In this document: in pieces, positions 4,365 through 51,869 of the stretch
Numbering within the stretch: the stretch's first letter is position 1
How the letters are laid out: each line of letters opens with the position of its first letter
Origin: Lentisphaerota bacterium
GTDB taxonomy: Bacteria; Verrucomicrobiota; Lentisphaeria; Victivallales; Victivallaceae
Assembly (NCBI GenBank): GCA_015061815.1
Contig: SUVW01000007.1
Location: 1 to 64,000 of the forward strand
DNA length: 64,000 nt
Direction of reading: 5' to 3'
Notes under the pieces: generated by a model
Seen by the model: only the letters and a program-made list of their open reading frames with translations
What the model was told of the DNA's origin: nothing
Databases searched by the model: none
Program-made: the position numbers and the translations under genes

Positions 4365-4393
4365 TTGAAAAAAACGTTTTTTTGCAGTATATT
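4365..4393 (+). promoter_or_regulatory. Promoter of the Ehr-type operon
   Basis: TTGAAA (4365-4370), a 17-nt spacer and TATATT (4388-4393), placing transcription start near 4400, ~40 nt before the GTG start. The spacing matches the other promoters found in this window. The divergent MacA-like gene starts at 4198, so the intergenic region serves both directions. Confidence 0.75.
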
Positions 4394-4438: not shown

Positions 4439-6298
4439 GTGAATATTCTTCTTTTGCCGGCGGCTGTGATGGCAGCCGGTGCGTTGGCGGCATTTGCGCT
4501 GCAGTGGAAAACAAAAGCCGCAACGGCAGTCGGAGCAGGAACGCTCTGCGGCAGTGCTTTGGCCGGATTGGTAATTCTTGGAACTCAATGGTTTGCCGGG
4601 ATGGATTTTTCTGTAAACCGGCTTTTTCTGCTGCCGGTGCTGCTTTTGGCTTTGACGGCCGGGATCCATTCGATCGGTTATCTTGCCGGACACGGCAGTG
4701 AACGCAGCGGCAGTTACTGGTGTCTGTTCAATTTGACCGCAGCGGCAATGATATGGGTCACTCAATCGACCGGCGCACTGACTTTTCTGCTGGCCTGGGA
4801 GATAATGGGTGCGGCGAGTTTTGCTCTGGTTATTTTTGACCGGCGCACCCCCGGAGCTTTGCGGGCTGGATGGATCTATATGATGGCGTGTCACGCCGGT
4901 GCGGCACTGCTGATAATGCTTTTCTTTTTTCAGCACACCCCGGTTTGGATGTTTATTCTCGGGTTGGCAGGATTCGGTTTGAAAATCGGTTTTCCACTGC
5001 TGCATGTCTGGCTGCCGGAAGCGCATCCGGCGGCTCCGGCCCCGGTATCAGCATTGATGTCCGGAGCAATGATCGAATTGGGCTTTTTCGGACTTTTTAC
5101 TTATGGTACTCTGCCGGATGGCAATCACATGCTGTACGGGTGGGTGCTGGCGGTTATTGGGGTGCTGGCCGCTGTTACCGGAATAATTTTTGCTTTGGCT
5201 CAAAGCAATATAAAGAAGCTGCTGGCTTACTCCAGTATTGAAAACATGGGGCTTTTGAGCTGTGCCGCCGGATTGGGATTTCTGGGAGCAGCTTACGGCA
5301 TTCCGGAGATGATGATTTGCGGCTTTACCGGATTCGGGATACATTTATTCAACCATGCGATGCTTAAAGGCGGTCTTTTTCTGGCGGCCGGATCGGTGTA
5401 CAAAGCTGCCGGGACGCTGAATATGGACGAATGCGGCGGATTGCTGAAAAGGATGCCGTTGACCGGGAGTGCTTTTATTATACAGGCTGTCGCGCTCTGC
5501 GGCTTACCGCCTTTTGCCGGATTTGCCGGAGAATTTCTTATTTATTTGGCCGCATTTGCCGGATTGTGCAGTTGTACGACGGCGGTGGTCTGGCTTTCCG
5601 GAGCGATACTGGTGATCCTCGCTCTGACCGGCGGTCTGGCGGCAGTGGCATTGGGAAAAGCGGCCGGGATCGTTTTCTGCGGTGAACCCCGCAGTGATGG
5701 AGCCGCCCGGGCCCGGGAGGTCGATGGTACGATGACGGTTCCGGTAATCATCCTGCCGGTTCTCAACTGTTTCTGGCTTTTTCTGATTCCGGAGGCAATT
5801 GCTTATGCCGGACAGAATATTTTTCCGTCTTACCCGGAAATCATTGAATCTCTGGCCGCCAGAGTAGTGGCGGTGGTGATACTGTGTGCCGTGTCAACCG
5901 TTGCTGCAGCGGTGATATTCATCATCCGGAGCCGGATAACTGCCGGTCACGGCGAAAGGATTTCGCCCACCTGGGATTGCGGATATGCCAAACCGGATGC
6001 AAAAATGGAGTATACCGGGACGTCGTTATCACAGAATCCGGTGGATTTTTTCCGTGCCATTATCCGTCCGGCAAGAAAAATTTCTCCGCCGTCGGGGATT
6101 TTTCCGGATAAAGCGGATTTTTCTGAAACGGTTGACGATACAGTTTTATCCGGATTCTGGACCAAAATTTTCCGGTGGCTCGGCAAAGTGGCTGACCGCA
6201 TCCACTTTCTGCAATCCGGCAGTTTGCACTTTTATCTGCTGGCTGCAGTTATTGCGCTGATCGGTATGTTGATATATTCAGTGATCCGGGGGGCTTGA
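4439..6298 (+). CDS. HyfB/HycC-like proton/ion-translocating membrane subunit (NuoL family)
   Basis: 619 aa, about 15 TM helices. An antiporter-like subunit of a complex I/group 4 hydrogenase-type machine in the cytoplasmic membrane. The family core is clear: 'LKIGFPLLHVWLPEAHPAAP', 'IKKLLAYSSIENMG', 'FNHAMLKGGLFLAAGSV' and 'CGLPPFAGFAGEF'. A GTG start at 4439 is chosen because AAGGG lies upstream and longer frames enter the promoter. One helix reads 'SALMSGAMIELGFFGLF', with Glu where the family usually has Lys. It is the first gene of a six-gene operon and the next gene starts 3 nt after its stop. Confidence 0.9.
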   Translation: MNILLLPAAVMAAGALAAFALQWKTKAATAVGAGTLCGSALAGLVILGTQWFAGMDFSVNRLFLLPVLLLALTAGIHSIGYLAGHGSERSGSYWCLFNLTAAAMIWVTQSTGALTFLLAWEIMGAASFALVIFDRRTPGALRAGWIYMMACHAGAALLIMLFFFQHTPVWMFILGLAGFGLKIGFPLLHVWLPEAHPAAPAPVSALMSGAMIELGFFGLFTYGTLPDGNHMLYGWVLAVIGVLAAVTGIIFALAQSNIKKLLAYSSIENMGLLSCAAGLGFLGAAYGIPEMMICGFTGFGIHLFNHAMLKGGLFLAAGSVYKAAGTLNMDECGGLLKRMPLTGSAFIIQAVALCGLPPFAGFAGEFLIYLAAFAGLCSCTTAVVWLSGAILVILALTGGLAAVALGKAAGIVFCGEPRSDGAARAREVDGTMTVPVIILPVLNCFWLFLIPEAIAYAGQNIFPSYPEIIESLAARVVAVVILCAVSTVAAAVIFIIRSRITAGHGERISPTWDCGYAKPDAKMEYTGTSLSQNPVDFFRAIIRPARKISPPSGIFPDKADFSETVDDTVLSGFWTKIFRWLGKVADRIHFLQSGSLHFYLLAAVIALIGMLIYSVIRGA

Positions 6299-6301
6299 AT
6301 C

Positions 6302-7237
6302 ATGCAAAACTTACTTTACCACATATTTGTTGTCATACTTGCCATTGTGCTGGCTCCCCTGCTGCCGGGAATAATCAACAAAGTGAAAGCATTTTTTGCC
6401 GGTCGGCGCGGGCCGCGTGTCACCCAACTCTATTTTGATTTGAGCAAGCTGGTGAAAAAGGAGTGTGTAGTTTCTTCTTCATCCGGCGGGATCATCCGGA
6501 TCGCTCCTGCGGTGATACTCGGTTTCACGGTTGTTGCGCTGATCCTGCTTCCGGTGCCGGGAGTTTGTCCGGTGTTGAGTTTTACCGGGGATGCGATAAT
6601 GTTCTTTTATCTGCTGGGCAGTGCCCGGATGCTGATGGTGCTGGCGGCACTGGATACGGCTTCCAGTTTTGAGGGGATGGGAAGCAGCCGTGAACTCTTC
6701 TTTTCCGCTCTGGCCGAAGCGGCGATTTTTGCCGTATTGACCTTTCTGGTGATTTTTTCCGGCCGGGTCGATCTTTACGGTATGCTTTGCGGCGGCGGAG
6801 TTGATTCGTGGATGACTCTGACTCCGGTACTGCTGGCGGCGACAGCGATGTTTCTGGTCGCGCTGGCAGAAAATTGCCGGGTCCCGTTTGATGATCCGGA
6901 AACTCATCTGGAATTGACCATGATCCATGAAGCGATGATTCTTGATTATGCCGGGCCGGATCTGGCGGCGATACTTTATGCTTCGGCGTTGAAACTCTGG
7001 ATATTTGCCGGTTTTATTACGGCGATGCTGATCCCGCCGGGAATCATGGCGTGGTATTATGAAATTGCAGTTTATCTTGCCGGAACCATCGGTATCATGG
7101 TGTTGATCGGCATCGTTGAGTCATCAATGGCGCGTTACCGATTTTTGAAAGTGCCGCCGTTATTGATTGCGGCGGCGGTATTGCCGGTGTTGGCGATACT
7201 TTTTTGCATCTATTTCATCACAGGAGGTGTGCAATGA
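6302..7237 (+). CDS. HyfC/HycD-like membrane subunit (NuoH family)
   Basis: 311 aa, eight or so TM helices. The membrane anchor that couples the soluble redox module to the ion-pumping arm. Family features are 'GRRGPRVTQLYFDLSKLVKK' near residue 35-55 and the conserved cytoplasmic loop 'ENCRVPFDDPETHLELTM', which contributes the acidic residues of the quinone-site-like E-channel. The start is the first ATG after the HyfB-like stop. The stop overlaps the next ATG (ATGA). Confidence 0.93.
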   Translation: MQNLLYHIFVVILAIVLAPLLPGIINKVKAFFAGRRGPRVTQLYFDLSKLVKKECVVSSSSGGIIRIAPAVILGFTVVALILLPVPGVCPVLSFTGDAIMFFYLLGSARMLMVLAALDTASSFEGMGSSRELFFSALAEAAIFAVLTFLVIFSGRVDLYGMLCGGGVDSWMTLTPVLLAATAMFLVALAENCRVPFDDPETHLELTMIHEAMILDYAGPDLAAILYASALKLWIFAGFITAMLIPPGIMAWYYEIAVYLAGTIGIMVLIGIVESSMARYRFLKVPPLLIAAAVLPVLAILFCIYFITGGVQ

Positions 7238-7911
7238 TCCAATTTAACGAACTGCTGCTGGCCCTGTTTATGACCAGCTGTCTGATGCTGGCTGTTTCCA
7301 GCCGGCTGCTGCACTGTATACGTCTGGTGGCATTGCAGGGGATCATTCTGGGGATATTGCCGTTGTCACTGGCCGGGATGTCCGGTGCCGGGGGGAATTG
7401 GACAATGGCGGTCATCAATCTGACGCTGAAAGGCGTTCTGCTGCCGCTGTTGCTGCTGCTGGCGATGAAAAAGGCCGGGGTGAAACGGGAGCTTGAACCG
7501 ATCGTCGGTTATTCTTTTTCGGCAGCGGCGGTGTTGCTGATGGCTCTTTGCAGTTTTTATCTCGGCCGGATTTTACAGCTGCCATCCGGAGCATCTGCTC
7601 TGGCGGGGATCGCCATTCCGGCGGCATTTACAACGGTTATGACCGGACTGTTTCTGATCATTGCCCGGAAAAAGGCTCTTACTCAAGTTATCGGTTTTCT
7701 GGTTTTTGAAAACGGTATAACTCTTTTCGGAGCGGCTGTGATGCGTGAACACCCGGTGATCGTGGAACTGGGGATATTGCTTGACGTATTGGTTCTGGTA
7801 TTTATTATGGGGATAACAGTTTTTCAGATCAGCCGGGAATTTTCCCATATCGACGCGGACCGGCTCAACCAACTGGATGATATATCCACCGGCAGGGAGG
7901 TGCAAAGATGA
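7234..7911 (+). CDS. HyfE-like membrane subunit (NuoK family)
   Basis: 225 aa, six to seven TM helices. A HyfE-type protein, a NuoK-like core with extra helices. 'VIGFLVFENGITLFG' near residues 150-165 contains the membrane-embedded Glu typical of the family. The start ATG at 7234 has a near-perfect AGGAGGTG site and overlaps the previous stop. The C-terminus is hydrophilic. It overlaps the next gene by ATGA. Confidence 0.9.
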   Translation: MIQFNELLLALFMTSCLMLAVSSRLLHCIRLVALQGIILGILPLSLAGMSGAGGNWTMAVINLTLKGVLLPLLLLLAMKKAGVKRELEPIVGYSFSAAAVLLMALCSFYLGRILQLPSGASALAGIAIPAAFTTVMTGLFLIIARKKALTQVIGFLVFENGITLFGAAVMREHPVIVELGILLDVLVLVFIMGITVFQISREFSHIDADRLNQLDDISTGREVQR

Positions 7912-9308
7912 TTATCGCCGGATTGATTTTAATTCCGCTGGCTGGTGCGCTGGCGGCATGGTTTGGTAAAAGCGGCAGATTCAGCAAGATCGTGTTGAAT
8001 ATCACCGCAGTTATCCACACGGTATTGTGCGGATTGTTGGTTCCGTATGGTTCGCCGCTGCATATTACCGGGACATTGACTTTGGCTGCCGACAGGGATG
8101 GATTGATAATTCTGACGGTGACCAGTGTATTGTTTTTATTTACCGCTTTGCATTTGAATTTCTGGCTGCCGCAGGATATGAAAAAATCCGGTGGTCACAG
8201 CGGGATAAAGAGTTACACTTTTGCATCATTGCTGCAGATTTTTCTGATGACCATGACATTAACGGCTCTGGCCCGGGATTTCGGAATGCTGTGGGTGGCA
8301 GTTGAGGCGACCACTTTGGCCAGTGCGCCGCTGATAAATTTCCATAAAAGCAAAGGTTCGCTGGAGGCAATGTGGAAGTATCTTCTGATCTGCTCTGTCG
8401 GAATCGGTCTGGCTCTTTTCGGAACCATGATCATTGCGGCGGCGTTGAGCGATCCTCACTGTGATTTGGGATTTGCAGCGGTAAAGGAGTTGATAAATTC
8501 CGGTTCGGTGAATATTCTCTGGTTCAAGATCGGATTTGTGTTGTTTTTTGCCGGTTATGCGCTGAAAATGGGACTTGCTCCGTTTCATTCGTGGCTACCG
8601 GATGCTCACAGCGAAGCCCCGGCTCCGGTTTCGGCACTGCTTTCCGGCAGTCTGCTCAATTGTGCATTTCTGGCGATTCTCCGGCTCTGTCAGATAATTC
8701 CCGGTCAATTGCAGGATTTTTGCGCCGGATATTTGAAGTTCTTTGGATTTTTCTCGCTGGCCGTCGCGGTGTTTTTTATCATAAATCAGAAAGATTTCAA
8801 GCGGATGCTGGCTTATTCCAGTGTGGAACACATGGGATTGATCGCGCTGTTTACGGCATACGGTCTGACTGATTACGGTATGCTCCATGTGGTTTCGCAT
8901 TCGTTGACTAAAATGGCTCTGTTCCTGGTGGCCGGAAATATTCTGTTGAGTTATAATACCCGGAATATTCTGGATGTGCGTGGTTTATCCGACCGGTTGC
9001 CGCGCAACGGGATGTTGTGGATCTGCGGGATGCTGCTGATCTGCGGTACGCCGCCGTCGCCGCTGTTTTTTACGGAATTGGTACTGGTGACGGGAGCCGG
9101 GATCTTGCCCGGAGCGGCGATTTTACTGCTGTTGCTGGTGATATTCTGCGCGATGTCCCGGAGCATGCTGCAAATGACTTCTCCGGAGGATAAAAAAACG
9201 GAACCGGACCCGGAAACTGACCGGCTTGCAGTGGTTCCGGCGGCGGCGATGATGTTGGTGACAGCACTCGGTATCGCCATCGGTACGGCGTGGATAATCA
9301 AAGGATGA
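7908..9308 (+). CDS. HyfF-like proton/ion-translocating membrane subunit (NuoN/L family)
   Basis: 466 aa, about 14 TM helices. The second antiporter-like subunit of the complex. Core motifs are 'ALKMGLAPFHSWLPDAHSEA', 'SGSLLNCAFLAILRL' (the LNCA form I associate with HyfF), 'FKRMLAYSSVEHMGLI' and 'SLTKMALFLVAGNIL'. The Lys in the WLPDAH-preceding helix is kept. Two antiporter-like subunits in one operon give the complex two putative ion channels. The start overlaps the HyfE-like stop. Confidence 0.9.
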   Translation: MIIAGLILIPLAGALAAWFGKSGRFSKIVLNITAVIHTVLCGLLVPYGSPLHITGTLTLAADRDGLIILTVTSVLFLFTALHLNFWLPQDMKKSGGHSGIKSYTFASLLQIFLMTMTLTALARDFGMLWVAVEATTLASAPLINFHKSKGSLEAMWKYLLICSVGIGLALFGTMIIAAALSDPHCDLGFAAVKELINSGSVNILWFKIGFVLFFAGYALKMGLAPFHSWLPDAHSEAPAPVSALLSGSLLNCAFLAILRLCQIIPGQLQDFCAGYLKFFGFFSLAVAVFFIINQKDFKRMLAYSSVEHMGLIALFTAYGLTDYGMLHVVSHSLTKMALFLVAGNILLSYNTRNILDVRGLSDRLPRNGMLWICGMLLICGTPPSPLFFTELVLVTGAGILPGAAILLLLLVIFCAMSRSMLQMTSPEDKKTEPDPETDRLAVVPAAAMMLVTALGIAIGTAWIIKG

Positions 9309-9315
9309 TGTGATC

Positions 9316-10809
9316 ATGGAAAAGAATTTTCTGTTTTTGAAAAATGGTTGCGCTGCGAGCTTCGATGCCATACCGCTGCTGCACGAAACCAAATTTTCCA
9401 CCGCCTGTTTGCAGGCGATACTGGAAGACAAGTGCCGGATATCTGCTTTTTTTGCGGTTCCCAAAAGCGGAACGGAACAAAATATTCTGGTAGCGGTACT
9501 GGCTGATCCGGAGCAGCATGGTTTGCGGATATTCCGGGGATTGATCGGCAAAGAGTATCAGTCGCTGACTGTTCACCATGCCGGATTCAACCGTTTTGAA
9601 CGGGATATTTATGAAAGTTGCCGGATCATCCCGCTTGGTCACCCCAACTTGAAACCGCTGCGTTTCCCCGGAGGAAATGTCGGGGAGATGGAATTTTTCG
9701 GGATGCATGGAAAAGAGGTGCATGAGGTTGCTGTCGGCCCGGTTCACGCCGGGGTGATCGAACCGGGACACTTCCGGTTTGAATGTATGGGCGAAACGGT
9801 TTATTCGCTTGAGATATCTCTGGGATATCAGCATCGGGGGGTGGAAAAACTTCTGGCTTCCGGGCCGGATAAGCGTTCCATACATCTGATCGAAACTGCC
9901 GCCGGAGACAGTTCCATTGCGGCGGCGTGGAACTACTGCCGGATAATTGAGTCGCTCGGCGCACTTCCGCCGGTGACTGAAGAGACAAATATTCTGCGGC
10001 AGATCGCTCTGGAATTGGAGCGTTGTGCCAATCATATCGGCGATTTGGGCGCGTTGGCCGGTGATGTGGCATTCTTGCCGACGGCCAGTTTCTGCGGCCG
10101 TATCCGGGGAGAATATCTCAATATGAGTGCCATGCTGTGCGGTAACCGGTTCGGGCGGAATTTCATAATTCCCGGCAGCTGCCGTTACGCGGTAAGTTGC
10201 GAAAAGGTCACCCGGATGCGGGAGTGGCTGGAACGGGTTTCCGGAGAGTTGTGGAACGCTTTGGAATTGATGTTCAACTCTCCGACTGTACTTGACCGTC
10301 TGGAGAATACCGGAACTGTTGACCGGCAGAGTGCAGTGGAACTGGGGCTGGTGGGTGTTGCCGCCCGGGCATGCGGATTGAAAATCGATATCCGGGAAGA
10401 TCTGCCGCCGGATGGAGCGGTAAAGGTGGTTCCGGTTTATGATAAAAGTTTTTCCGGGGACGTCCTGTCCCGGGCCCGGGTGCGGTATGAGGAATTGAAA
10501 AGGTCGCATGAGTTCCTTTTTTCCGCTTTTGACCGTTGCCGTCAGGGTATCGAACTTCCGCCCGGAGGGGAGGAAATTCCGGATTTGACTCCTGGTGCGA
10601 TCGCTGTTTCGGTGATCGAGGCATGGCGTGGAGAACTTTGCCATGTGGCCTTGACCGACAGTTGCGGTAAGTTTCAGTGTGTGAAAATAACCGATCCATC
10701 CATGCATAACTGGGAAGGATTGGCGATGGCGTTGCGCAATGAAGAGATAGCTCACTTTCCCATCTGCAACAAGAGCTTCAATCTCTCTTACTGCGGTCAT
10801 GATCTTTGA
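9316..10809 (+). CDS. HyfG/HycE-like large subunit lacking [NiFe] ligands (NuoC-NuoD fusion)
   Basis: 497 aa. An N-terminal NuoC-like domain (about 1-110) is fused to a NuoD/hydrogenase-large-subunit domain. The catalytic cysteine pairs of real hydrogenases are gone. Where RxCGxC is expected after 'GYQHRGVEKLL' the sequence reads 'LIETAAGDSSIAAAW', and the C-terminal DPCxxC is replaced by 'KSFNLSYCGHDL', which is complex I-like. It therefore cannot bind a [NiFe] centre in the usual way and matches the Ehr (energy-converting hydrogenase-related) class. ATG 9316 is preferred over GTG 9310 because of its spacing to AGGA. The substrate is unknown. Confidence 0.92.
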   Translation: MEKNFLFLKNGCAASFDAIPLLHETKFSTACLQAILEDKCRISAFFAVPKSGTEQNILVAVLADPEQHGLRIFRGLIGKEYQSLTVHHAGFNRFERDIYESCRIIPLGHPNLKPLRFPGGNVGEMEFFGMHGKEVHEVAVGPVHAGVIEPGHFRFECMGETVYSLEISLGYQHRGVEKLLASGPDKRSIHLIETAAGDSSIAAAWNYCRIIESLGALPPVTEETNILRQIALELERCANHIGDLGALAGDVAFLPTASFCGRIRGEYLNMSAMLCGNRFGRNFIIPGSCRYAVSCEKVTRMREWLERVSGELWNALELMFNSPTVLDRLENTGTVDRQSAVELGLVGVAARACGLKIDIREDLPPDGAVKVVPVYDKSFSGDVLSRARVRYEELKRSHEFLFSAFDRCRQGIELPPGGEEIPDLTPGAIAVSVIEAWRGELCHVALTDSCGKFQCVKITDPSMHNWEGLAMALRNEEIAHFPICNKSFNLSYCGHDL

Positions 10810-10821
10810 GGAGGGTAAATT

Positions 10822-11577
10822 ATGTGGAATTCACTTAAAGCCAGATTGTTTCAGGGATATCGTACCGGGAAATTCCCGTATGTACCGCCGCAGTTGCCGG
10901 AAAATTTTGCCGGCCGTCCGGAAGTTTTCCCGGAAAAATGCAGCTCCTGCGGCAAATGCCGGGATATTTGTCCGACCGGAGCTGTGCGTGAGGTTGGCCG
11001 CAATTTAAGTATCGACACCGGCAAATGTATTTTTTGCGGCAAGTGCGCCGGAAATTGTCCGGAAGCGGCAGTGACGATGAGCCGCGAATACCGTCTGGCG
11101 GCAATGGAGCGTGATGCGCTGATCGCCGATGGTACGGCTTATATGCCGCAGCGGCCGACGGACCGGAAATTTTTGAAATTCTGCGGTAATTCGCTCAAAA
11201 TCCGTCAGGTTTCCGCCGGAGGATGTGCGGCGTGTGAACTGGATTTCAATGTATTGAATACTCTGGCATGGGATATGGGGCGTTTCGGGATACAGGTGGT
11301 CGCTTCCCCCCGGCATGCCGATTGTATTCTGGTCACCGGACCGGTAAGCGACAATATGCTGCTGGCTCTGAAAAAGAGTTACGATGCCGCCCCCCGGCCG
11401 GTTTGGGTTATCGCCTGCGGTACTTGTGCAGTATCCGGCGGGATCTATGCCGGATCAGCGGTGGTTCATGATGGAGTTGAAAAGATATTGAAGCCGGATC
11501 TTTATGTTCCGGGGTGTCCGCCGCATCCGGCAACTTTGCTGGAGGGGATTCTGCGTTTGATGGATAAAAAGTTGTGA
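10822..11577 (+). CDS. Fusion of 2x[4Fe-4S] ferredoxin (HyfH-like) and NuoB/HyfI-like small subunit
   Basis: 251 aa. The N-terminal half has two ferredoxin cluster motifs, CSSCGKCRDICP and CIFCGKCAGNCP (about residues 36-83). The C-terminal half is a NuoB-type small subunit with the proximal-cluster cysteines in 'GGCAACELD', 'GTCAVSGG' and 'VPGCPPHP'. So the electron path into the complex looks intact although the large-subunit metal site is lost. Ferredoxin-like and NuoB-like subunits are usually separate genes (hyfH, hyfI). GAGGAGGG precedes the ATG. It is last in the complex operon; the symporter follows after 10 nt. Confidence 0.92.
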   Translation: MWNSLKARLFQGYRTGKFPYVPPQLPENFAGRPEVFPEKCSSCGKCRDICPTGAVREVGRNLSIDTGKCIFCGKCAGNCPEAAVTMSREYRLAAMERDALIADGTAYMPQRPTDRKFLKFCGNSLKIRQVSAGGCAACELDFNVLNTLAWDMGRFGIQVVASPRHADCILVTGPVSDNMLLALKKSYDAAPRPVWVIACGTCAVSGGIYAGSAVVHDGVEKILKPDLYVPGCPPHPATLLEGILRLMDKKL

Positions 11578-11587
11578 AAGGTATCTG

Positions 11588-12976
11588 ATGAAAAAGGAAG
11601 GTTTTTCCAGCCGTTTGGGATTTGTTCTGGCGGCGGCCGGGTCTGCTGTCGGGCTGGGCAATATTTGGCGTTTCCCGTATCTTACGGCTAAATATGGCGG
11701 CGGAATTTTTCTGTTGACCTATCTGGTTTTGATGTTGACTTTCGGTTATGCATTGCTGATATCGGAAAATAATATTGGCCGCATGACCGGAAAAAGTCCG
11801 ATCGGAGCATTCCGGGATCTTTGTGCCGGGAAGGGGTTCTGGGGGCGGATCATCTCTCCGGGAGGATGGATCAATGCGCTGGTGCCGCTGATAATACTGC
11901 CGTATTACTGTGTGATCGGCGGTTGGGTGACCAAATATATGTTTGCATTTGCAACGACACCGGTGGCGGATTTCGGGACACCGGAGAGTTCGGCGGATTA
12001 TTTTACCGGTTTTATCTCATCCACCGGTGAACCGCTGATCTTTTTTCTGGTATTTGTGCTGATCACTGCGGCGGTGGTCTGCTTCGGTGTGGAAAAGGGC
12101 ATAGAACGCTTCAACAAGGTTTTGATGCCGACGTTGATCCTGCTGATCATCGGCATTTGTATTTATTGCATGTTTCTGCCGGGGGCCGGAGCCGGTTTGA
12201 AGTATTATCTGATGCCGGATCTGCAGAAATTCAGCTATATGACCGTTGTTGAAGCGATGGGGCAATTATTCTTTTCACTTTCCATTGCGATGGGGATCAT
12301 GATCACTTACGGTTCATATATGCGTCCGCAGGATGATCTGGTATCCAGTGTGAATCATGTGGAATTGTTTGATACAGCGGTGTCATTTCTGGCCGGATTG
12401 ATGATAATTCCGGCGGTAGTGGCTTTCGGCGGAGAAGAAGCTGCCGGCAATGCCGGACCGGGATTGATTTTTGTCATAATGCCGCAGGTTTTCGGCAGTT
12501 TCCCCGGAGGACAGATCGTTGGCTTGGTATTCTTTATACTGGTGTTGTTTGCCGCTGCAACCAGTGCGGTTTCCCTGTTGGAAACCAATGTGCATACGCT
12601 TATGCAGGAATTGAAACTTTCCCGCAGCAAAGCTCTTTTCTTTAACTTGATCGAAGTTGCTGTTATCGGGGCCGTGACTGTTTTGGGGTACAGCATTTGG
12701 AAACATATCCGTCCGCTGGTGTTTTTCAAAGGCGGTGAAAATATGGATATACTTGACAGTCTGGATTTTATCAGCAACAGTATTCTGATGCCTATCGGAG
12801 CTGTTTTCACCACATTGCTGGTGATAACGGTTATCGGGCTTAAAAAATTCTGCGACAGTATAAAAAGTTCAGACTGTCCCTGGCATCGGGAATTTGTTTA
12901 CCGCTTCTGCATGGTCGTGATAGTTATTCCGTTTCTGCTGATCGTGCTGCTAAATGCAACCGGATTGCTTCACTGA
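11588..12976 (+). CDS. SNF-family (NSS) sodium-dependent transporter
   Basis: 462 aa, 11-12 TM helices. Na+-coupled amino acid/neurotransmitter-type symporter of the cytoplasmic membrane. The hallmark TM1 region is 'GSAVGLGNIWRFPYLTAKYG' at about residues 19-38, where Na+ and substrate bind. TM6 unwound region and TM8 small-residue motifs follow. It starts 10 nt after the Ehr-type operon with its own AAAGG site, so it is probably co-transcribed and would use the ion gradient. It converges with and overlaps the HAD gene by 7 nt. The substrate is not predictable. Confidence 0.93.
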   Translation: MKKEGFSSRLGFVLAAAGSAVGLGNIWRFPYLTAKYGGGIFLLTYLVLMLTFGYALLISENNIGRMTGKSPIGAFRDLCAGKGFWGRIISPGGWINALVPLIILPYYCVIGGWVTKYMFAFATTPVADFGTPESSADYFTGFISSTGEPLIFFLVFVLITAAVVCFGVEKGIERFNKVLMPTLILLIIGICIYCMFLPGAGAGLKYYLMPDLQKFSYMTVVEAMGQLFFSLSIAMGIMITYGSYMRPQDDLVSSVNHVELFDTAVSFLAGLMIIPAVVAFGGEEAAGNAGPGLIFVIMPQVFGSFPGGQIVGLVFFILVLFAAATSAVSLLETNVHTLMQELKLSRSKALFFNLIEVAVIGAVTVLGYSIWKHIRPLVFFKGGENMDILDSLDFISNSILMPIGAVFTTLLVITVIGLKKFCDSIKSSDCPWHREFVYRFCMVVIVIPFLLIVLLNATGLLH

Positions 12977-43873: not shown

Positions 43874-44198
43874 ATGAAAAAGCTATTTGTGTTTTCTGAC
43901 TGCGGCAAAGCAGGAAAGACCGGGCAATGGTAATTTGATGCAGCTGGCCCGGAAGCTTATGAAACCATCAATTTTCAAAATGACGGCTGCCAGAGTGTTG
44001 AAAAATTTATTTCCGGCTTGTAATGATTCAGTTCCGGAGGCAGAAGAGTTCAACAGTTTTTGTATTATTCTTGCCGGTAACAGCGAAAAGAAGAAGTATC
44101 CGGAGTTTTTTATTTCAAATCCGGCGGAGAGAGTTCAAACCTTTTTTACGCAAATAGAAATAACAGCAAAACTTCTCCCTGTCGCCATTTTACCTTAA
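43874..44198 (+). pseudogene. Small unrecognised gene, apparently frameshifted
   Basis: ATG 43874 (GGAGG upstream) opens MKKLFVFSDCGKAGKT, then stops within 20 codons. A +1 frame continues smoothly as 'GNGNLMQLARKLMKPSIFK' and 'EEFNSFCIILAGNSEKKKYP' to 44198. A single-base change near 43920 would join them into a ~107-residue protein. I recognise no family. From 44256 to 44357 only an AT-rich promoter-like stretch is seen. Confidence 0.35.
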
Positions 44199-44203
44199 AA
44201 TAT

Positions 44204-44255
44204 GTGCAGTTAATTTAACCAATACCCCTCGGCATAATTACTGCGGTATTATGAC
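44204..44255 (+). repeat. 52-bp half-conserved element, left copy
   Basis: GTGCAGTTAATT, then 24 variable bases, then ACTGCGGTATTATGAC. The same layout with identical spacing recurs at 45848-45899. The two copies bracket the Fic-like remnant and the YeiH-type gene. Confidence 0.6.
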
Positions 44256-44357
44256 TTATTTGCATAATTTCAGAATTATCTGCACAAAATAAACTTAAAA
44301 TTGTGCAGAACGGCATTATATTATGGGCAGATAAAATAAAACAGCGCGACTGGATTT

Positions 44358-44500
44358 ATGAGAAAATTTGATTATTCGGCATTTCCGGGAGCGTTGTTTA
44401 CTCCGGAAATCAGCAATCTTTTATCCGCCATTCTCAATATCGCGGAAAACAGGATTCGTACATTACTGCCGAAATGGATATTTTGAAAACGCTGTTTGAA
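44358..44500 (+). pseudogene. Fic-family N-terminal remnant, frameshifted
   Basis: ATG 44358 gives 'MRKFDYSAFPGALFTPEISN' and LLSAILN; one base later, in the next frame, it continues 'RGKQDSYITAEMDILKTLFE'. Together these match the N-terminus of Fic/DUF4172-type proteins (MxxFDYS...LLxxIxEYxGKQDxY). A 1-nt deletion near 44435 separates the frames, and similarity stops near 44500, before any HPFxxGNGR Fic motif. On the opposite strand ~44490-44610 a 40-codon fragment 'DWLDVNILRREPEFEKKKS' also looks coding. The area is a junction of gene debris. Confidence 0.55.
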
Positions 44501-44614
44501 GTTTTTCTTTGTGATTATCAAGAGATTTTTTCTTTTCAAATTCGGGTTCCCGGCGCAGAATGTTGACATCAAGCCAGTCTGCCGTGGAGGACATCAGATA
44601 ATATCCTTTTACGC

Positions 44615-44643
44615 TTGAAAAAGTCGCATTCAGGGGGTATATT
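44615..44643 (+). promoter_or_regulatory. Promoter of the YeiH-type gene
   Basis: TTGAAA (44615-44620), 17-nt spacer, TATATT (44638-44643); predicted start near 44650, ~32 nt before the ATG. Confidence 0.75.
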
Positions 44644-44681
44644 ACATATCTGTTTGAAGTTTGAATTTAAATTAAGTGAAT

Positions 44682-45707
44682 ATGATGAAAACTGAAATTT
44701 TGAATTTTGTTAAGGTACTGCCCGGCTTTATTATGGCACTTTGCATTGCCGGTGCGGCTAAAGCGGTGGAGATGGTGCTGCCGATGCATATTGTCGGTGC
44801 ATCGGTCATCGCATTGTTTGCCGGTATGATCATCAACAGCTTCTGGCGTCCGGCATGGGCAGCCCATGGGTTGAAGTTTACATCCAAAAAGATACTTAAA
44901 TTTGCCATTATACTTCTCGGCGCGTCACTCAGTATTAACGTGATACTTTCTGTGGGCAGGCTTTCTCTTATGGTCATGTTTTTTACTCTTCTCGCCTGCT
45001 TCGGCGGCGGATATCTTGTCGGAAAGGCTCTCGGTTTAAATTGGAAACTTTCCAATCTTATCTCCGCCGGAACCGGAATATGCGGCGGCAGCGCAATTGC
45101 AGCGGTAGCCCCGGTTATAGATGCTGAAGACAGGGATATTGCATACGCCATGTCTGCAACATTCCTTTTTGACATGGCAATGATTGTGCTTTTTCCCATA
45201 ATGGGACGCGCGCTGGGTCTTTCTGATGAAGCATACGGGCTTTGGGCGGGTACAGCTGTCAACGATACATCAAGCGTGGTTGCAGCCGGTTATGCATTCA
45301 GCGAGGGCGGCGGAGATTTTGCCACTATGGTAAAGCTGACGAGAACTCTGGCGATTATCCCGACCGTGCTGGTGTTTGCCTTTGTCAATATCCACCTGAC
45401 AAGAAAAAAACATTTGGAAACTTCCGGAAATAAGATCAACTTCCGGGGATTGTTTCCCTGGTTCATTCTGGGATTTCTTGCGCTGGCTGCAATCAACAGC
45501 TCCGGCATCATTCCGGCAGGGATCTCCAAAATTGCCAAGGATGCAAGCAAGTTCCTTATGATTGCGGCTCTGGCAGCGATTGGTCTCGGCACCAGCTTGA
45601 AAGATATGAAAAAGTCCGGTGTAAATCCCATGCTGCACGGCTTTATTATTTCGGTGCTGGTGGTTATTGTGGCAATCGCCGTTGAATGGTTTATGGGCAT
45701 GGTGTGA
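44682..45707 (+). CDS. YeiH/UPF0324-family putative sulfate exporter
   Basis: 341 aa, about 10-11 TM helices. Conserved 'KFAIILLGASLSINVIL', 'LISAGTGICGGSAIAAVAPV', 'LWAGTAVNDTSSVVAAGYA' and 'AIGLGTSLKDMKKSG' define the family (PF03601). Members have been linked to sulfite/sulfonate or sulfate export, but direct evidence is thin. Start ATG 44682 (44685 and GTG 44676 also possible; no clear SD). Leucine codons CTT/CTC and the codon texture differ from the GCC/CTG/TTG-rich neighbours, hinting at acquisition by transfer. Confidence 0.88.
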   Translation: MMKTEILNFVKVLPGFIMALCIAGAAKAVEMVLPMHIVGASVIALFAGMIINSFWRPAWAAHGLKFTSKKILKFAIILLGASLSINVILSVGRLSLMVMFFTLLACFGGGYLVGKALGLNWKLSNLISAGTGICGGSAIAAVAPVIDAEDRDIAYAMSATFLFDMAMIVLFPIMGRALGLSDEAYGLWAGTAVNDTSSVVAAGYAFSEGGGDFATMVKLTRTLAIIPTVLVFAFVNIHLTRKKHLETSGNKINFRGLFPWFILGFLALAAINSSGIIPAGISKIAKDASKFLMIAALAAIGLGTSLKDMKKSGVNPMLHGFIISVLVVIVAIAVEWFMGMV

Positions 45708-45847
45708 TTGAAACGCGCTGTCAGAGTATATACTCCAGCCGCATTGACCTTTGATTTTAAGGTAAGAGGTCTTTAGGTTTAATATTTCAACGGCAAATGC
45801 AATTATTTGCGAAATTGCAGTTTTTATGACCTCTGACCTCAAAAACA

Positions 45848-45899
45848 GGTGCAGTTAATTACCTCTGCACCCGATATTGAAATAACTGCGGGATAATGA
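45848..45899 (+). repeat. 52-bp half-conserved element, right copy
   Basis: GTGCAGTTAATT, 24 variable bases, ACTGCGGGATAATGAC; see the left copy at 44204. From 45708 to 45847 the sequence is AT-rich with an interrupted GACCT/AGGTC inverted pattern (around 45748-45840) but no gene. Confidence 0.6.
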
Positions 45900-45934
45900 C
45901 CTGTTGCTGACTTTCTATATTTCTGCAAAGCAGC

Positions 45935-45984
45935 TTGACAACGGATCAGAAGTGTGTTATTTTATGATAAACAATTATTTATCA
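45935..45984 (+). promoter_or_regulatory. Orphan promoter with overlapping operator palindrome
   Basis: TTGACA (45935-45940), 17-nt spacer, TATTTT (45958-45963). Two bases later a perfect inverted repeat TGATAAA-6-TTTATCA (45965-45984) covers the predicted start. No rightward gene follows: the next rightward frames overlap the 3' end of the leftward GH116 gene. The promoter therefore either drives an antisense/small RNA or has lost its gene. Confidence 0.55.
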
Positions 45985-46065
45985 CAATTACGGTTACATT
46001 GTTGACATATATAAAGAGTTTACCGAGATCATGCTGCAATTGGTACTTCCATATGGATTTTTTTA

Positions 46066-48567
46066 TCAACAGTTGCCGGGATGTTTCACAAATGGTATTT
46101 CAAGAGTATCTCCGGCATTCAGCGTAACCGGCAGTATCAGTGAGTCAAATTTGCGTGGCAATAACAGTTTTTTCAGAGTGAAAGTTCCGTGGAGAAGAGT
46201 TATTTCAGCTTTTGAATCATCCTGAAAATAGAGCCCCCAGATATCGCCTAAAGCCCAAAATGATTGAAAAATTCCCGGAATTACCGGGGCAAAGCCCAAC
46301 ATCCCGGCATTACGGTCATAGCGGAATCCGCTCAGTGCCGGCAGCATTGCGTAAGATGCCATACTGCGGGAATAATTGCTGCCGCATTCAAATTCATTAT
46401 AGGGATTGCGTTTTCTGCCGTCGAAGCGGTCGCGGATCGCCTTCGCCACGCGGAGGGATTTTTTTACATATCCCTGCGAAGCGAGTGCCGCTGCAAACAT
46501 CCATTCAAATCCGGGCATGGTTTCGCTGTTGTAGGTGAGAGGGATAATCGGTTTGTTTCCTTTGGGCCACGTGCAAATTATTGTTCCAGCTTCATCATTC
46601 AAGCTGTACACCCGCCATAAATTGATAAAGTCACGCATTGATTTTTTGAAGTTGTATTTATAGACGGATTGCAGTGACTTGCGGTATTTTTTTCTGTCAA
46701 AAACGTTGGTTAATCCGTAAATGTCTGCATAAGTCTGAGCCAGTGCCGCATCTATACCGCAGCCTCCGGAAATTTGATATTTGAGTTCTTTATGTTCATC
46801 GCTCCAATAGCTTGTTGCATCGAATTTATCAATAATTCCCTTATTTTTCAGGTCAATTGACTGTGTGAAATATTCGCCGTTGAAAAGTTCTTTGTTGACG
46901 GTTGCGTATCCTTTGCGGAATATCCGGCGGCATTTTTCTGCAAAAGTTGTATCTTTCATAAAATCTGCCAGTTCTGCAGCGGCAGCCAGAGCCCCGAGGT
47001 AATGTCCGGTCAGCCAACTGTTTGCTCCGAAAAGTTCCATATCCAGAGTGTGATGTTGGCGTCCTGTCAACACTCCTGTTTCATCTGGGTCCCATAAATC
47101 CGGATTTTTATCACTCCAGGCGAACTCAATGGTCTGTTTGATCGTTGACCAATATCGGCGGATAAAATTGTTATCTCCCCCGATTTTCCAGTCACGGTAA
47201 ATTTTCATGATATCGCCGAATTGTCCGTCTGCACATGGGCGGTGATCTCCGGTTTCGGCATGGATACCCAGCGGCAGCAGCAATCTGAAGTGACTGCCGC
47301 CATTGACATCAACACTGTATTTCAAATGACTTTCACGCATTGATCTTTCCAGATCAGGGAAGAGAAATGGCAAAGCCTGGGCATAATTCAGCACGTGTGA
47401 GCATGAACCTTCACAGGAGCCGTATTTGGTGGATACTCCTTCCCAAGCATAAAAAGTTCCATCTTCCAGCCGCAGACAGGTAGGACTTTTCAGTATTGCA
47501 AGATTGGCACTGACGGCTTCTTTTATGACCTCCGGAAGAGTGCCATTGAAAACCGCATCCCGGAAAAGGAAAGTTTTGCATCGGAGTTCTTTATAATTTT
47601 TCAAGGCGTATTCAGCTGATTCAATGGAATTCTTCCAGCATACTGCATAAAAATTTTTCCATGTCCATTTGACATTATTTGCTTCAGCCCGTTCTTTGCG
47701 CCCGGGGTAATTTTCCATGGCTCGGACAGGGATACTCCATGATATGATAAAACGGGAGGTTTTTTTTGCTCCGGGCGGCAGGGTGAAACGTGCCGCAGCA
47801 AGACCGCTGCTTTGAACGGTGTATCCGGTCGGATAAAGTCTGTCTTTGAAATTGCCTCCTGCAAGCAGATCATGAAAATATACTTCAATGGAATCTTTCC
47901 ATTTTCCTTTGAAAAGATAAGTCTGATAAGAGATATCGCTGCCGGGAGAGTCGATCGCCATTGTGATGTCGCCGGTTTTGCTGCCGTCGAAACAGGTCAG
48001 GCAGTTATCTTTGAATTTATTTGCGGAATCAGGATTTTCACTCCATGGATTGGTGAGAACCCCCAATGCGGTATATGTTATTTCTCTGTCGGTGTTGTTT
48101 TCAAGTTCAATTTCAAAAAAAGCTGCAGGCAGGGAAGATGGCAGGCTTTCGCCGGGGATCATGACACTCCAGGCTGTGAGGGAGGTTTTTGCCGGGAATT
48201 TTTCTCCACTGAATTCCAAATGGCAGACGGGATAAGTTCCTTCAAAGGTGTGTTTGCGGAAATGAGGAAGATTGCAGAGAGTTCCTTCTGCCGGACCATA
48301 ACCGAATCCGAAATGTTTATTTTCGTAAAAATAATCACCGATATAGTGAGGAGCAAGATCTCCATTAAGAACCCGGACATCGGTAACTTTACCATTTTCT
48401 TCTGCGCGGATAGCGAAATGAGATATTCCGTTCATGCTCCCTTTGTTCGGAGCATTGAAAATTTCCCAGTCAATCAGCATCCCATTGCCTGCAATACCGA
48501 TGCTGCCGGAACCGATCCCGCCCATCGGGAACGAAATACATTCAGTTTTTTCTTTAGAGTAAAGCAT
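46066..48567 (-). CDS. GH116-family beta-glycosidase (non-lysosomal glucosylceramidase-like)
   Basis: 833 aa, no signal peptide, so likely cytoplasmic. The N-terminal beta domain opens 'FPMGGIGSGSIGIAGNGML', the family start. The C-terminal (alpha/alpha)6 barrel has 'GSCSHVLNYAQALPFLFPDL', 'HHTLDMELFGANSWLTGHYL' (nucleophile Glu, about residue 511) and 'GGCGIDAALAQTYADIYGL' (acid/base Asp, about 606). GH116 enzymes act on beta-glucosides, xylosides or GlcNAc. AGGAG precedes ATG 48567. It stands alone with its own promoter. Confidence 0.9.
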   Translation of the reverse strand: MLYSKEKTECISFPMGGIGSGSIGIAGNGMLIDWEIFNAPNKGSMNGISHFAIRAEENGKVTDVRVLNGDLAPHYIGDYFYENKHFGFGYGPAEGTLCNLPHFRKHTFEGTYPVCHLEFSGEKFPAKTSLTAWSVMIPGESLPSSLPAAFFEIELENNTDREITYTALGVLTNPWSENPDSANKFKDNCLTCFDGSKTGDITMAIDSPGSDISYQTYLFKGKWKDSIEVYFHDLLAGGNFKDRLYPTGYTVQSSGLAAARFTLPPGAKKTSRFIISWSIPVRAMENYPGRKERAEANNVKWTWKNFYAVCWKNSIESAEYALKNYKELRCKTFLFRDAVFNGTLPEVIKEAVSANLAILKSPTCLRLEDGTFYAWEGVSTKYGSCEGSCSHVLNYAQALPFLFPDLERSMRESHLKYSVDVNGGSHFRLLLPLGIHAETGDHRPCADGQFGDIMKIYRDWKIGGDNNFIRRYWSTIKQTIEFAWSDKNPDLWDPDETGVLTGRQHHTLDMELFGANSWLTGHYLGALAAAAELADFMKDTTFAEKCRRIFRKGYATVNKELFNGEYFTQSIDLKNKGIIDKFDATSYWSDEHKELKYQISGGCGIDAALAQTYADIYGLTNVFDRKKYRKSLQSVYKYNFKKSMRDFINLWRVYSLNDEAGTIICTWPKGNKPIIPLTYNSETMPGFEWMFAAALASQGYVKKSLRVAKAIRDRFDGRKRNPYNEFECGSNYSRSMASYAMLPALSGFRYDRNAGMLGFAPVIPGIFQSFWALGDIWGLYFQDDSKAEITLLHGTFTLKKLLLPRKFDSLILPVTLNAGDTLEIPFVKHPGNC

Positions 48568-48614
48568 TTTATCTCCTGTATGAAAATATCGTTGATTTAT
48601 ATCTTATCCAGGGT

Positions 48615-48643
48615 AATATAATGCATATAATGGGTAAATACAA
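48615..48643 (-). promoter_or_regulatory. Promoter of the GH116 gene
   Basis: Minus strand TTGTAT (48643-48638), 17-nt spacer, TATATT (48620-48615); start near 48608, ~41 nt leader. Confidence 0.68.
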
Positions 48644-48885
48644 ATCTTTTTTTTATTTTCAGGTATTGTCTCAATTGTTGTGGGAAATCGGTTCATCGAC
48701 GGTTTATGACAGAAGTGCGCAGAAAAATATAAAAATCTGAAAGACATGATTGAAAAAGACTGGAATTGCATCTGTTGTTTTATCGCGAAAAAAACTGTAG
48801 AGAGGTTGTATCTGTTGAACCGTTCTGTCGCTCTTTGGCCGTTATTTGGCCAATGCCCCCTTAAACCGCTGTTATCGTGAGCAGT

Positions 48886-49086
48886 CTGAAAAGGCGTTTT
48901 ATGAAGCACTTTGTGTCTTGCACGCCTCCGGCGTGTCAAGCACACAAAAGTATGAAGCACATTTTGTGCTTGCGAGCTTTGCTCGTCAAGCATCAAAATA
49001 TATGAAGCACGCCTGTCGGCGTATGAAGCGAATCCTTTTCAGGCTTCATGTTTTTTTGCCCGGAATTTGGGCAAAAAATGGGGTGG
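48886..49086 (+). repeat. Palindromic ATGAAGC repeat element, copy 1
   Basis: Bounded by CTGAAAAGG (48886) and CCTTTTCAG (49042). Inside, a string of small hairpins is punctuated by ATGAAGC: CTTGcacgcctccggcgtgTCAAG, CTTGcgagctttgctcgTCAAG and CACGCC-tgt-CGGCGT. It is followed by a T7-GCCCGGAATTTGGGC-A6 hairpin and then TGGGGTGG, the reverse complement of the tRNA-His 3' tail. 48644-48885 before it holds nothing recognisable. Confidence 0.8.
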
Positions 49087-49153
49087 AAGATTTCGTTCCT
49101 GCTCCTTGCCCTCATTGCAAAGAGTTTAAAACGCTTTTATGCAGATACAATTA

Positions 49154-49248
49154 ACTGCGGCACTCTGAAAGAGATGCTCGACAACGGCGAAAGCAAAAAA
49201 GTCGGTTCCGGCAGAGCAACGGCGTATGTAAAAAAGTTGACCACTTAA
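49154..49248 (+). pseudogene. Possible C-terminal winged-helix remnant
   Basis: A short frame reads 'CGTLKEMLDNGESKKVGSGR' then ATAYVKK and a stop. It resembles the last winged helix of AlbA_2/RecG-like or Fic-associated regulators (xxLVxxGxxxxVGSGRxTxY). No upstream body of the gene is present; the frame runs back into the repeat. Weak call. Confidence 0.3.
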
Positions 49249-49706
49249 CAGAATGGAACTCCGTCTGCATCTTTGTCAATGGTACATATTTCAATCAAGC
49301 ACCAAATGAAAACCGCAATATAAGGTAGGATCAACCAACCGGTGAGCAGACTGATCAACAGTTGAGCAATCGCTTTGCCGAAATATCCGGCGTAAAAATT
49401 GTGTATTCCCAGTCCTCCCAGAAAAACACCTAATAAGATGTATGTGGTTCTATTTTTGGGCAGCGTGGAATTTACTGCAACATTACTTGCTGTTACTGTG
49501 GGGGCAACTTGGGCCGACATACCTGGATAAGAAATAACATTGATTTTCATTGCAGAATTATCTGTTTGCTTCATTTCTGATATCCTCATCAGTGCCGGAT
49601 CAATGATCTCTCCGCAAAAGCGGCATTTTTTGGCAAGAATATTGATTTTTTCCGCACAAAATGGACATTGTTTCAAACTGACGTTTTCATTGTTTTCTTG
49701 AGACAT
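49245..49706 (-). CDS. Zinc-ribbon TM2-domain membrane protein
   Basis: 153 aa. N-terminal double zinc ribbon 'CPFCAEKINILAKKCRFCGE' (about 14-33), a linker, then a TM2 domain of two TM helices with the turn motif 'GGLGIHNFYAGYFGKAIAQL' (about 95-114) and an acidic end 'CTIDKDADGVPF'. It overlaps the end of the lgt gene by 20 nt, so it is co-expressed. TM2 proteins are of unknown function. Confidence 0.88.
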   Translation of the reverse strand: MSQENNENVSLKQCPFCAEKINILAKKCRFCGEIIDPALMRISEMKQTDNSAMKINVISYPGMSAQVAPTVTASNVAVNSTLPKNRTTYILLGVFLGGLGIHNFYAGYFGKAIAQLLISLLTGWLILPYIAVFIWCLIEICTIDKDADGVPFC

Positions 49707-50457
49707 AATTTTTATCCTTTTTATTGATTGATATCAGCCATAAAATTCCAATTGTGAAAATTACGGCACTAATCCATTGAGATGGAGAAAAGGTGTCGCA
49801 GAATAATCTGCCTCGGTCATCCGCTCTGAAAAATTCCAATATAAAACGCCCCAAAGCAAGCATTATCAAATACAATGCCCCCCGATGCTTAAAGCGTATA
49901 AGTGTAACTAATACAATAAATATTAAAAATAAGTAGGCACTTTCATAAAGTTGCACCGGAATCAGCGGAATTGCTCCGTACTGTTTATATGGAAGCGTGT
50001 CCGGAGGATAACTAACCCCCCATGTCATCGTCGCAGGAGAACCGTAACAACACCCTCCCAGAAAGCATCCGATTCTGCCAAATGCCTGACCGATCGCAAA
50101 TGTCGGAAAAAATAAGTTGAATAAATAAGTTAATGATATGCCGGATTTTTTAGAATATATTGCTAAAAAAAGAGAAGCTGACAATAACCAGCCATAAAAA
50201 GTCAAACCATAAGCAAAAGGAGTTTTTAATAGCGCCAACAGACCGCCCCGCAGAAGGATATCTGTTATATGAGCGCCAATGGTACCTGCAATAAAGGTAA
50301 GAGGGATTGCAAGCATTACTGCATTTTCATATGCAATAGATGCTGCAATCTTTTTTAAGTGTAAAAAAATAACAAAAACCCCGGAAGCAAGACCAATACC
50401 GACGCATACAGGAAAAGTGCCTGTTTCATAACCAAACAAATTGAATTCTGAAAACAT
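49687..50457 (-). CDS. lgt: Prolipoprotein diacylglyceryl transferase-like protein
   Basis: 256 aa, seven TM helices. Lgt moves diacylglycerol from phosphatidylglycerol to the lipobox Cys of prelipoproteins. The signature 'GQAFGRIGCFLGGCCYGSPA' with the essential Arg, plus 'LTFYGWLL' (H-x-R-GG region replaced by a Tyr/Gly form) and 'LGRFILEFFRADDRG', supports the family. The usual 'HGRL/YYGG' loop is not canonical, so a divergent paralogue is possible. It lies between two small membrane-protein genes, outside any normal lgt context. Confidence 0.82.
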   Translation of the reverse strand: MFSEFNLFGYETGTFPVCVGIGLASGVFVIFLHLKKIAASIAYENAVMLAIPLTFIAGTIGAHITDILLRGGLLALLKTPFAYGLTFYGWLLSASLFLAIYSKKSGISLTYLFNLFFPTFAIGQAFGRIGCFLGGCCYGSPATMTWGVSYPPDTLPYKQYGAIPLIPVQLYESAYLFLIFIVLVTLIRFKHRGALYLIMLALGRFILEFFRADDRGRLFCDTFSPSQWISAVIFTIGILWLISINKKDKNYVSRKQ

Positions 50458-50480
50458 TGAGATTGCTTCCGGGGGGATTT

Positions 50481-50942: not shown

Positions 50943-51056
50943 TTTTTCTCCTTGTTGTTTGGCTATGTGTGCGTCATTTTTTGTTCACAAACAGCAAAGA
51001 AATTCAAAGGACAAAACACAAGTCTTCAGTGAATAGCGTGGAATCATGGAGGAAAT

Positions 51057-51789: not shown

Positions 51790-51869
51790 AATGAGTTATT
51801 CCTTTCAACTGTTAATATAACAATGCAAGGTATGTATTACAAGCGGAGAACTCTCATTTTTTCGTTTTC

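Follow-up and report, generated by a model that had tools for sequence, protein, structure and literature searches.

The energy-converting hydrogenase-related (Ehr) complexes adjoin the group 4 hydrogenases in published placements (PMC10284858, PMC7304191), and they have been reported in comammox Nitrospira, in Margulisbacteria and their relatives, in bacteria of the candidate phyla radiation (CPR) and in Methylacidiphilum. In the Ehr of Nitrospira, CPR bacteria and Margulisbacteria, the metal-binding cysteines are described as absent and the function as unknown (PMC6349859, PMC10284858, PMC7304191), and Lentisphaerae were named in 2019 among the organisms with sequences that group with Ehr (PMC6349859). 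Here we analyse the six genes ehrABCDLS of a Lentisphaerota bacterium (assembly GCA_015061815.1), which lie within positions 1 to 64,000 of the forward strand of contig SUVW01000007.1, a stretch of 64,000 nucleotides called the window in what follows. Judged from its place in our trees and from the listing of Lentisphaerae in PMC6349859, the locus is a further member of this already known family. A previous annotation made from the letters of the window (the original prediction) had described it as an Ehr-type complex of a family with an undefined acceptor, in agreement with the family function given as unknown in PMC10284858, and had argued for a ferredoxin-driven ion pump. On balance, we consider it probable that the operon encodes a ferredoxin-fed ion pump that uses some soluble acceptor.

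Several described machines share parts of this architecture. The Ehr of Geobacter sulfurreducens (GSU0739-45; PMC7894505) resembles that of the window in its Hyf-like membrane subunits and in EhrL and EhrS, although the name EhrA-1 implies two EhrA proteins there, whereas the window has one and several of the compared loci show two. In a further difference, the host of the window is expected to have no quinones. Formate hydrogenlyase and hydrogenase 4 have the same membrane-subunit families as the window operon, and Escherichia coli HycE (7z0s) is the best match of EhrL in sequence and, among the best 50 fold matches, in fold; however, the window lacks all four Ni/Fe ligands, and its host genome has neither a formate dehydrogenase of the PF00384 type nor HypD. 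Any group 4 [NiFe] hydrogenase needs two Ni-Fe-binding CxxC pairs, and EhrL has neither of them. The MBS complex of Pyrococcus furiosus is, like the proposed Ehr, a ferredoxin-fed relative of complex I without a working [NiFe] site, but all the Mrp homologues are present in it, its proximal cluster is open-coordinated and MbsL still has two of the cysteines (PMC7684303), whereas the window shows a six-gene operon, a CxxC at the N2 cluster and none of the four large-subunit cysteines. As for complex I (Nuo) itself, no family of its NuoE/F/G-type NADH module occurs among the six operon genes, the only place where these were looked for.

The original prediction held that all four [NiFe] ligands were lost, and this is borne out by the alignments: the columns of the four Ni/Fe ligands, which are cysteines in [NiFe] hydrogenases, hold A198, S201, S493 and G496 in EhrL (numbered from the GTG at 9310), the last two within NLSYCGHDL (residues 491-499). 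No CxxC pair at shifted positions was seen in EhrL in alignments with true hydrogenases, whose own pairs remain in place. Nine large subunits (L070-L078, L numbers being compared loci and G numbers genomes) of the 77 aligned serve as internal positive controls, keeping E(R/H)xCGIC and DPCxSCT(E/D)R. Among 113 distinct EhrL-type sequences (above 200 bits, from loci of the phylum Verrucomicrobiota), 106 have no cysteine at the four ligand columns, three have one, and four have all (L070, L071, L112 and L116), the latter all outside the Ehr clade.

The residues standing in for the ligands are themselves conserved. The replaced site reads CNKSFNLSYCGHDL in 70 of the 113 sequences, with close variants in most of the rest, and the 53 invariant columns of a 36-sequence EhrL alignment include E195, D200, N487, K488, S489, S493, Y494, G496 and D498; a hydrogenase-type GPxH...EP segment is retained as well. 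The ratio of nonsynonymous to synonymous substitution rates (dN/dS) is 0.091 for EhrL and 0.102 for EhrS against locus L005, and 0.118 and 0.109, respectively, against L006; values of dS near or above 1, here and below, are close to saturation. Conserved replacements together with this strong constraint indicate a site that is refitted, not abandoned, and sequence decay as the cause of the missing ligands was rejected on the same grounds (conserved pocket residues and dN/dS of 0.09-0.12 against two relatives).

In the small subunit, EhrS, the eight ferredoxin-type and four N2-type cysteines are all present, as the claim of intact ferredoxin and NuoB clusters had it. Its N2 loop pair is CAAC, that is, a CxxC. 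According to PMC7684303, two residues separate the N2-loop cysteines of MBH, those of complex I are adjacent, and the MBS motif is three residues shorter than that of MBH, one loop cysteine being no longer a cluster ligand. With CxxC spacing and four ligands in the window, cluster-catalysed sulfur reduction as in MBS is not an obvious model. Four N2 ligands are kept in 112 of 120 EhrS-type sequences, and the remaining eight comprise five truncated at the site and three true losses; a search pattern for the N2 spacing caught 91 of the 120, 87 of them CxxC and four others including the mis-hit L128. Since every cluster ligand is intact in the window, electron transfer is probably in use there, which favours a ferredoxin-fed pump. 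The fused two-cluster ferredoxin-type domain of EhrS is not found in L109, L110, L146 and the Rhizobium plasmid loci. In several EhrS (L037, L041, L042, L019, L023, L026, L030, L031), the cysteines of the C40/C43/C46 type are missing, and in some C79 too, as if one ferredoxin-type cluster had been lost and the other kept.

Phylogeny places the window among its NiFe-less relatives. In an EhrL tree of 123 sequences and 355 columns rooted with NuoD (FastTree with local supports, not bootstraps; rerooted in Biopython, as were the other trees), 108 tips including the window form a clade without [NiFe] ligands with a local support of 1.0, as expected for the Ehr-type complex that had been proposed, and the window EhrL falls within no clade of cysteine-bearing hydrogenases. 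The sister of this clade is L112 (0.983), beyond which come L069, HycE and L116, with the Mbh and Ech-type sequences in a separate group (0.753). L112 (8552-16096 of G399:C355) has the A-B-C-D-L-S gene order and the NKSF segment in common with the window, but only L112 has intact ERICGVC and LCYSC motifs, which mark it as a probable true [NiFe] hydrogenase in the sister position to Ehr. L069 (3659-5227, G017) also lacks the [NiFe] cysteines, its large subunit reading ERFAGTTA and ...LSVAENDR; its gene order is B-C-D-L-S-A and it branches outside L112 and Ehr, which suggests a second, independent loss, although the branch is long. The A-B-C-D-L-S order otherwise recurs across families, with L063, L068, L069 and the double operons as exceptions. 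Three named relatives, with 66-69% identity, are from metagenome-assembled genomes of Lentisphaeria/Lentisphaerae, one of these from sheep colon. In a 25-sequence tree, the window joins NiFe-less sequences from Variovorax, Rhizobium, Burkholderia, Rhodococcus, Allomeiothermus and Methylocalor (0.846); none of the records of named-organism relatives is labelled Ehr, and the Geobacter EhrL was not among the tree sequences. These plasmid-borne relatives share the ending NKS....Y.G.DL, and many such large subunits, where annotated, are called NADH-quinone oxidoreductase subunit C.

The gene content of the host (2.5 Mb in 44 contigs, 94% complete) bears on what such a complex could do. No match was found in this genome to PF00374, to HypD (the one hyp gene searched), to UbiA, with a model that matches 14/14 control genomes, or to the molybdopterin oxidoreductase family PF00384, with a model that matches 11/14. 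The original prediction had noted that hyp genes were lacking nearby, and the absence of HypD turns out to be genome-wide. These four absences make [NiFe] chemistry, quinones and a Mo/W formate dehydrogenase of the PF00384 type unlikely partners of Ehr in this organism. Ferredoxin-linked genes are present, with four matches to POR_N (pyruvate:ferredoxin oxidoreductase) and two to RnfC_N, one of them over the cut-off, and there is one [FeFe] hydrogenase catalytic domain. Across the order, P0001 has matches in 78 of 137 genomes, of which 73 were scored as Ehr-positive, the rest having only Ech-type or L069-type subunits; the scoring was read from the match listing, with G114 and G013 taken as positive from fragments and G017, of the L069 type, left out. 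HypD follows Ech, being present in 30 of 31 Ech-positive genomes, and among the Ech-negative ones it occurs in 5/46 with Ehr versus 18/60 without. Ech, HypD and UbiA are missing together from 33 of the 73 Ehr-positive genomes.

Rnf is an established ferredoxin-consuming ion pump, and a replacement of Rnf by Ehr was considered, as Ehr is present in 23 of the 27 genomes without Rnf (p 0.0002 for the whole set). The idea is not put forward here, since the association is gone among the Ech-negative genomes, where 5/46 Ehr-positive versus 3/60 Ehr-negative lack Rnf (p 0.29; G001 scored as having Rnf through a sub-threshold match, and Fisher tests that ignore phylogeny).

A working scheme for the window complex would run as follows. 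Reduced ferredoxin, made by pyruvate:ferredoxin oxidoreductase, would dock at the two-cluster domain of EhrS, and its electrons would reach the N2-type cluster, at the interface with EhrL, by way of the ferredoxin-type clusters. As they arrive, and as some species held in the refitted pocket of EhrL is protonated or reduced, the NuoH-like EhrB would be driven, and after it the antiporter-like EhrA and EhrD, so that H+ or Na+ is moved. In this scheme we infer ferredoxin as the donor, the pumping of ions and its direction, and the soluble nature of the acceptor.

Some relatives depart from this picture at the N2 site. The Ehr clade of the 108 tips comprises a type 1 (101 tips including the window, 0.785) and a type 2 (7 tips, 0.841), a division of modest support; type 2 reaches only 0.404 in the 25-sequence tree, and in the EhrS tree the type-2 proteins are not united in a single clade. 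In G206 (L107, 2-14604), a type-2 ABCDLS is inserted between type-1 ABCD and type-1 LS, and the arrangement is the same in G523 (L149, 36-11258), whose contig starts within type-1 D. In G001 (L063, 427-15021), type-1 ABCDL is followed by type-2 S-A-B-C-D-L and then by type-1 S, and G003 has two Ehr operons on separate contigs; C and D of the second operon in G001 and G003 are not clearly typed, D scoring higher with the type-1 model. The type-1 EhrS of G206 and G523 keep their ferredoxin-type cysteines and have none of the four N2 cysteines (S, E, E and W in G206), and that of G528, encoded on a contig other than that of type 2, lacks two. The type-2 EhrS of G001 and G003 have no ferredoxin domain and have lost three of the four. 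Finally, plasmid pMESIL01 of Allomeiothermus silvanus DSM 9946 encodes an EhrS without any N2 cysteine, found twice (L160 10305-11177 and L169 9992-10864, one protein accession for both), next to EhrL genes annotated as NADH-quinone oxidoreductase subunit C and lacking D200. For G523, G528 and Allomeiothermus, the state of the N2 columns comes from visual inspection of the sequences and not from the count over 120. N2 cysteines have thus been lost in three lineages, two of which carry a second Ehr operon, either nested in the first one or at another genomic location. The motif is intact in both EhrS of G636, whose operons lie in tandem, in the type-2 EhrS of G145 and of those read from the G001/G003 family (G539, G473, G443, G438, G509 and G492), and in both operons, type 1 and type 2, of plasmid 3 of the soil bacterium Variovorax sp. 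PBL-E5 (L159 3896-11180 and L163 270-7454, 3.4 kb apart).

These N2-less EhrS genes are under purifying selection, not decaying. Between G206 and G523, EhrS has 83% identity and a dN/dS of 0.085, and EhrL 76% and 0.175; the N2-less EhrS of G001 and G003 share 80% identity, their synonymous sites being saturated. The EhrL invariants persist in the N2-less complexes (53/53 in G523 and 51/53 in G206, two genomes that had no part in their definition); this check is circular for the rows window, T1_G001, T2_G001 and T2_G003 and independent for the others. The G001 type of EhrS is rare in the class: of 196 genomes searched with the G001 protein, none but G001 and G003 gave close copies. Our literature search found no published description of an N2-less Ehr, although Coppi 2005 and Marreiros 2013, known through citing papers, may contain one.

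Other chemistries can be imagined for the emptied pocket. A ferredoxin:quinone version of complex I would be in keeping with the NuoD fold common to EhrL (among the best 50 fold matches) and with the complex-I-like enzyme without an NADH module that has been proposed to accept ferredoxin electrons in Desulfitobacterium (PMC11238625), but EhrL keeps the hydrogenase-type GPxH...EP segment, its N2 partner has a CxxC instead of the adjacent pair of complex I, and there is no UbiA match in the host or in 49 of the 73 Ehr-positive genomes of the order (Ehr versus UbiA, p 0.055, Fisher test, phylogeny ignored). We hold it to be highly improbable in this organism; the 24 Ehr-positive genomes with some UbiA match leave room for a quinone reductase elsewhere in the family. 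Barely credible here is the chain of formate dehydrogenase and Ehr put forward for Margulisbacteria and Saganbacteria (PMC6349859), despite the proteomic hint of high Ehr in G. sulfurreducens grown on formate (PMC7894505), because PF00384 occurs in only 4 of the 137 genomes of the order, that of the window not among them, and in 3 of the 73 Ehr-positive ones, once below the cut-off. A sulfane-sulfur reductase of the MBS kind, with the N2-type cluster itself reducing polysulfide or disulfide in the pocket, has in its favour the ferredoxin-fed MBS as precedent (PMC7684303) and 6u8y_L as a sequence relative of EhrL; it seems improbable given that MBS catalysis is linked to a proximal cluster with one iron not ligated by cysteine, from a shortened motif, and that MBS retains two of the four large-subunit cysteines (PMC7684303), whereas the window has the MBH-type CxxC with all four N2 cysteines and no large-subunit cysteine at those columns. 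For the host genome, all three readings were rejected on the lack of UbiA, the lack of PF00384 and the MBH-type N2 spacing.

The N2-less relatives raise a different kind of alternative, in which the EhrL/EhrS head performs no net chemistry and couples, senses or holds a membrane arm that exchanges ions on an existing gradient, independently of redox reactions or gated by them. The selected N2-less EhrS of G206-G523 and G001-G003, the Allomeiothermus plasmid copy and the EhrL invariants kept beside them all speak for such an antiporter, as does DAB2, a complex with a complex-I-like membrane subunit for which no electron input is described (PMC13144422). For the window we judge it unlikely, since its cluster ligands are intact and most EhrS-type sequences keep their four N2 ligands. 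Somewhat less doubtful, although still a rather speculative proposal, is that Ehr can work without electrons at the old hydrogen site, that a redox-active and a redox-dead Ehr together make a double pump, and that the EhrL pocket of the window couples instead of catalysing; it starts from the two Ehr types that are co-encoded or nested, one with an EhrS that is N2-less and yet under selection.

Several points weigh against the ferredoxin-fed pump that we favour. Judging by the N2-less relatives, not every conserved Ehr requires electrons to reach the EhrL site; this makes a purely catalytic pocket less likely and keeps redox-independent or paired-pump readings open. Rnf is also encoded in the host genome, leaving the need for a second ferredoxin-consuming pump unexplained, and no measured donor or acceptor for any Ehr was found in the available parts of the literature. 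The AlphaFold2 model of EhrL has confidence scores (pLDDT) below 50 at residues 124-131, 143-158 and 496-499, so that modelling of the pocket or cavity is unreliable. At 94% completeness an assembly gap might account for the absence of any one gene, although the same absences across many incomplete genomes make chance gaps unlikely.

The features of the locus are collected in the table. The six adjacent genes overlap by 4 nt or are separated by gaps of at most 12 nt, a spacing from which a single operon is deduced. Open reading frames and Pfam/NCBIfam matches are in line with the claims of six subunits in one operon, the HyfH-like and HyfI-like parts being fused as EhrS, and of two antiporter-like subunits, EhrA and EhrD, both with Proton_antipo_M. 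Against the hydrogenase 4 models the membrane subunits score below the cut-offs: EhrA 371.6 bits for subunit B (cut-off 667), EhrD 278.5 for subunit F (610) and EhrC 81.8 for the membrane subunit NF008556 (136); EhrC also reaches 23.8 bits for PF00420 (26.1).

Features of the ehr locus and its 3' neighbour in the window
Feature	Position	Strand	Description
ehrA	4439 (GTG; TTG 4382 possible) to 6298	+	HyfB/NuoL-like, antiporter-like membrane subunit; PF00361, E 2.9e-40
ehrB	6302-7237	+	HyfC/NuoH-like membrane anchor for the soluble arm; PF00146 (NADHdh), E 1.5e-28
ehrC	7234-7911	+	HyfE-like membrane subunit; NuoK-like C-terminal half
ehrD	7908-9308	+	HyfF-like, second antiporter-like membrane subunit; PF00361, E 1.9e-45
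ehrL	9316 (ATG) or 9310 (GTG) to 10809	+	hydrogenase/NuoCD-like large subunit (Complex1_49kDa), without [NiFe] ligands
L1 site	9892-9915	+	ETAAGDSS, EhrL 195-202 (from GTG 9310), where ERxCGxC belongs
L2 site	10768-10806	+	C-terminal NKSFNLSYCGHDL, EhrL 487-499, where ...DPCxxC belongs
ehrS	10822-11577	+	251 amino acids; fused two-[4Fe-4S] ferredoxin-type and NuoB-like (N2 cluster) domains; Fer4, PF01058 (Oxidored_q6), E 6.7e-26
SNF-family sodium symporter	11588-12976	+	PF00209, E 8.9e-56; starts 10 nt past ehrS

The symporter gene is a possible member of the operon; its neighbour cluster, c12, is present only in the window, L001, L002 and L003 among the 49 loci compared. In the same comparison, no partner gene is conserved near the operon past small clades, except a gene with helix-turn-helix (HTH) and enzyme IIA (EIIA) domains immediately 5' of ehrA in 11 of the 49 (L044, L045, L046, L048, L051, L053, L055, L058, L060, L061 and L062), some loci ending short of this upstream flank. 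The copy in L044 (12156-12929) has HTH_17 and PTS EIIA-2 domains, and the gene is a candidate regulator that would tie Ehr to a phosphotransferase signal. A promoter and terminator scan gave a promoter-like match at 4365-4393, 5' of ehrA in the window, which is not evidence by itself. Elsewhere in the window, positions 1-468 hold the 3'-terminal part of a 23S rRNA gene and a 5S rRNA gene, and the G+C content falls to 41-45% at 44001-52000, compared with about 50% across most of the window, a stretch that is possibly acquired DNA.

Ehr is widespread, yet in the available literature it has no assigned reaction. A host without detectable UbiA, [NiFe] or PF00384 formate dehydrogenase machinery would narrow the question of the acceptor to a testable form, and the relatives with an N2-less EhrS, including that of the Allomeiothermus silvanus DSM 9946 plasmid, may serve as natural mutants for the need of electron transfer to EhrL.

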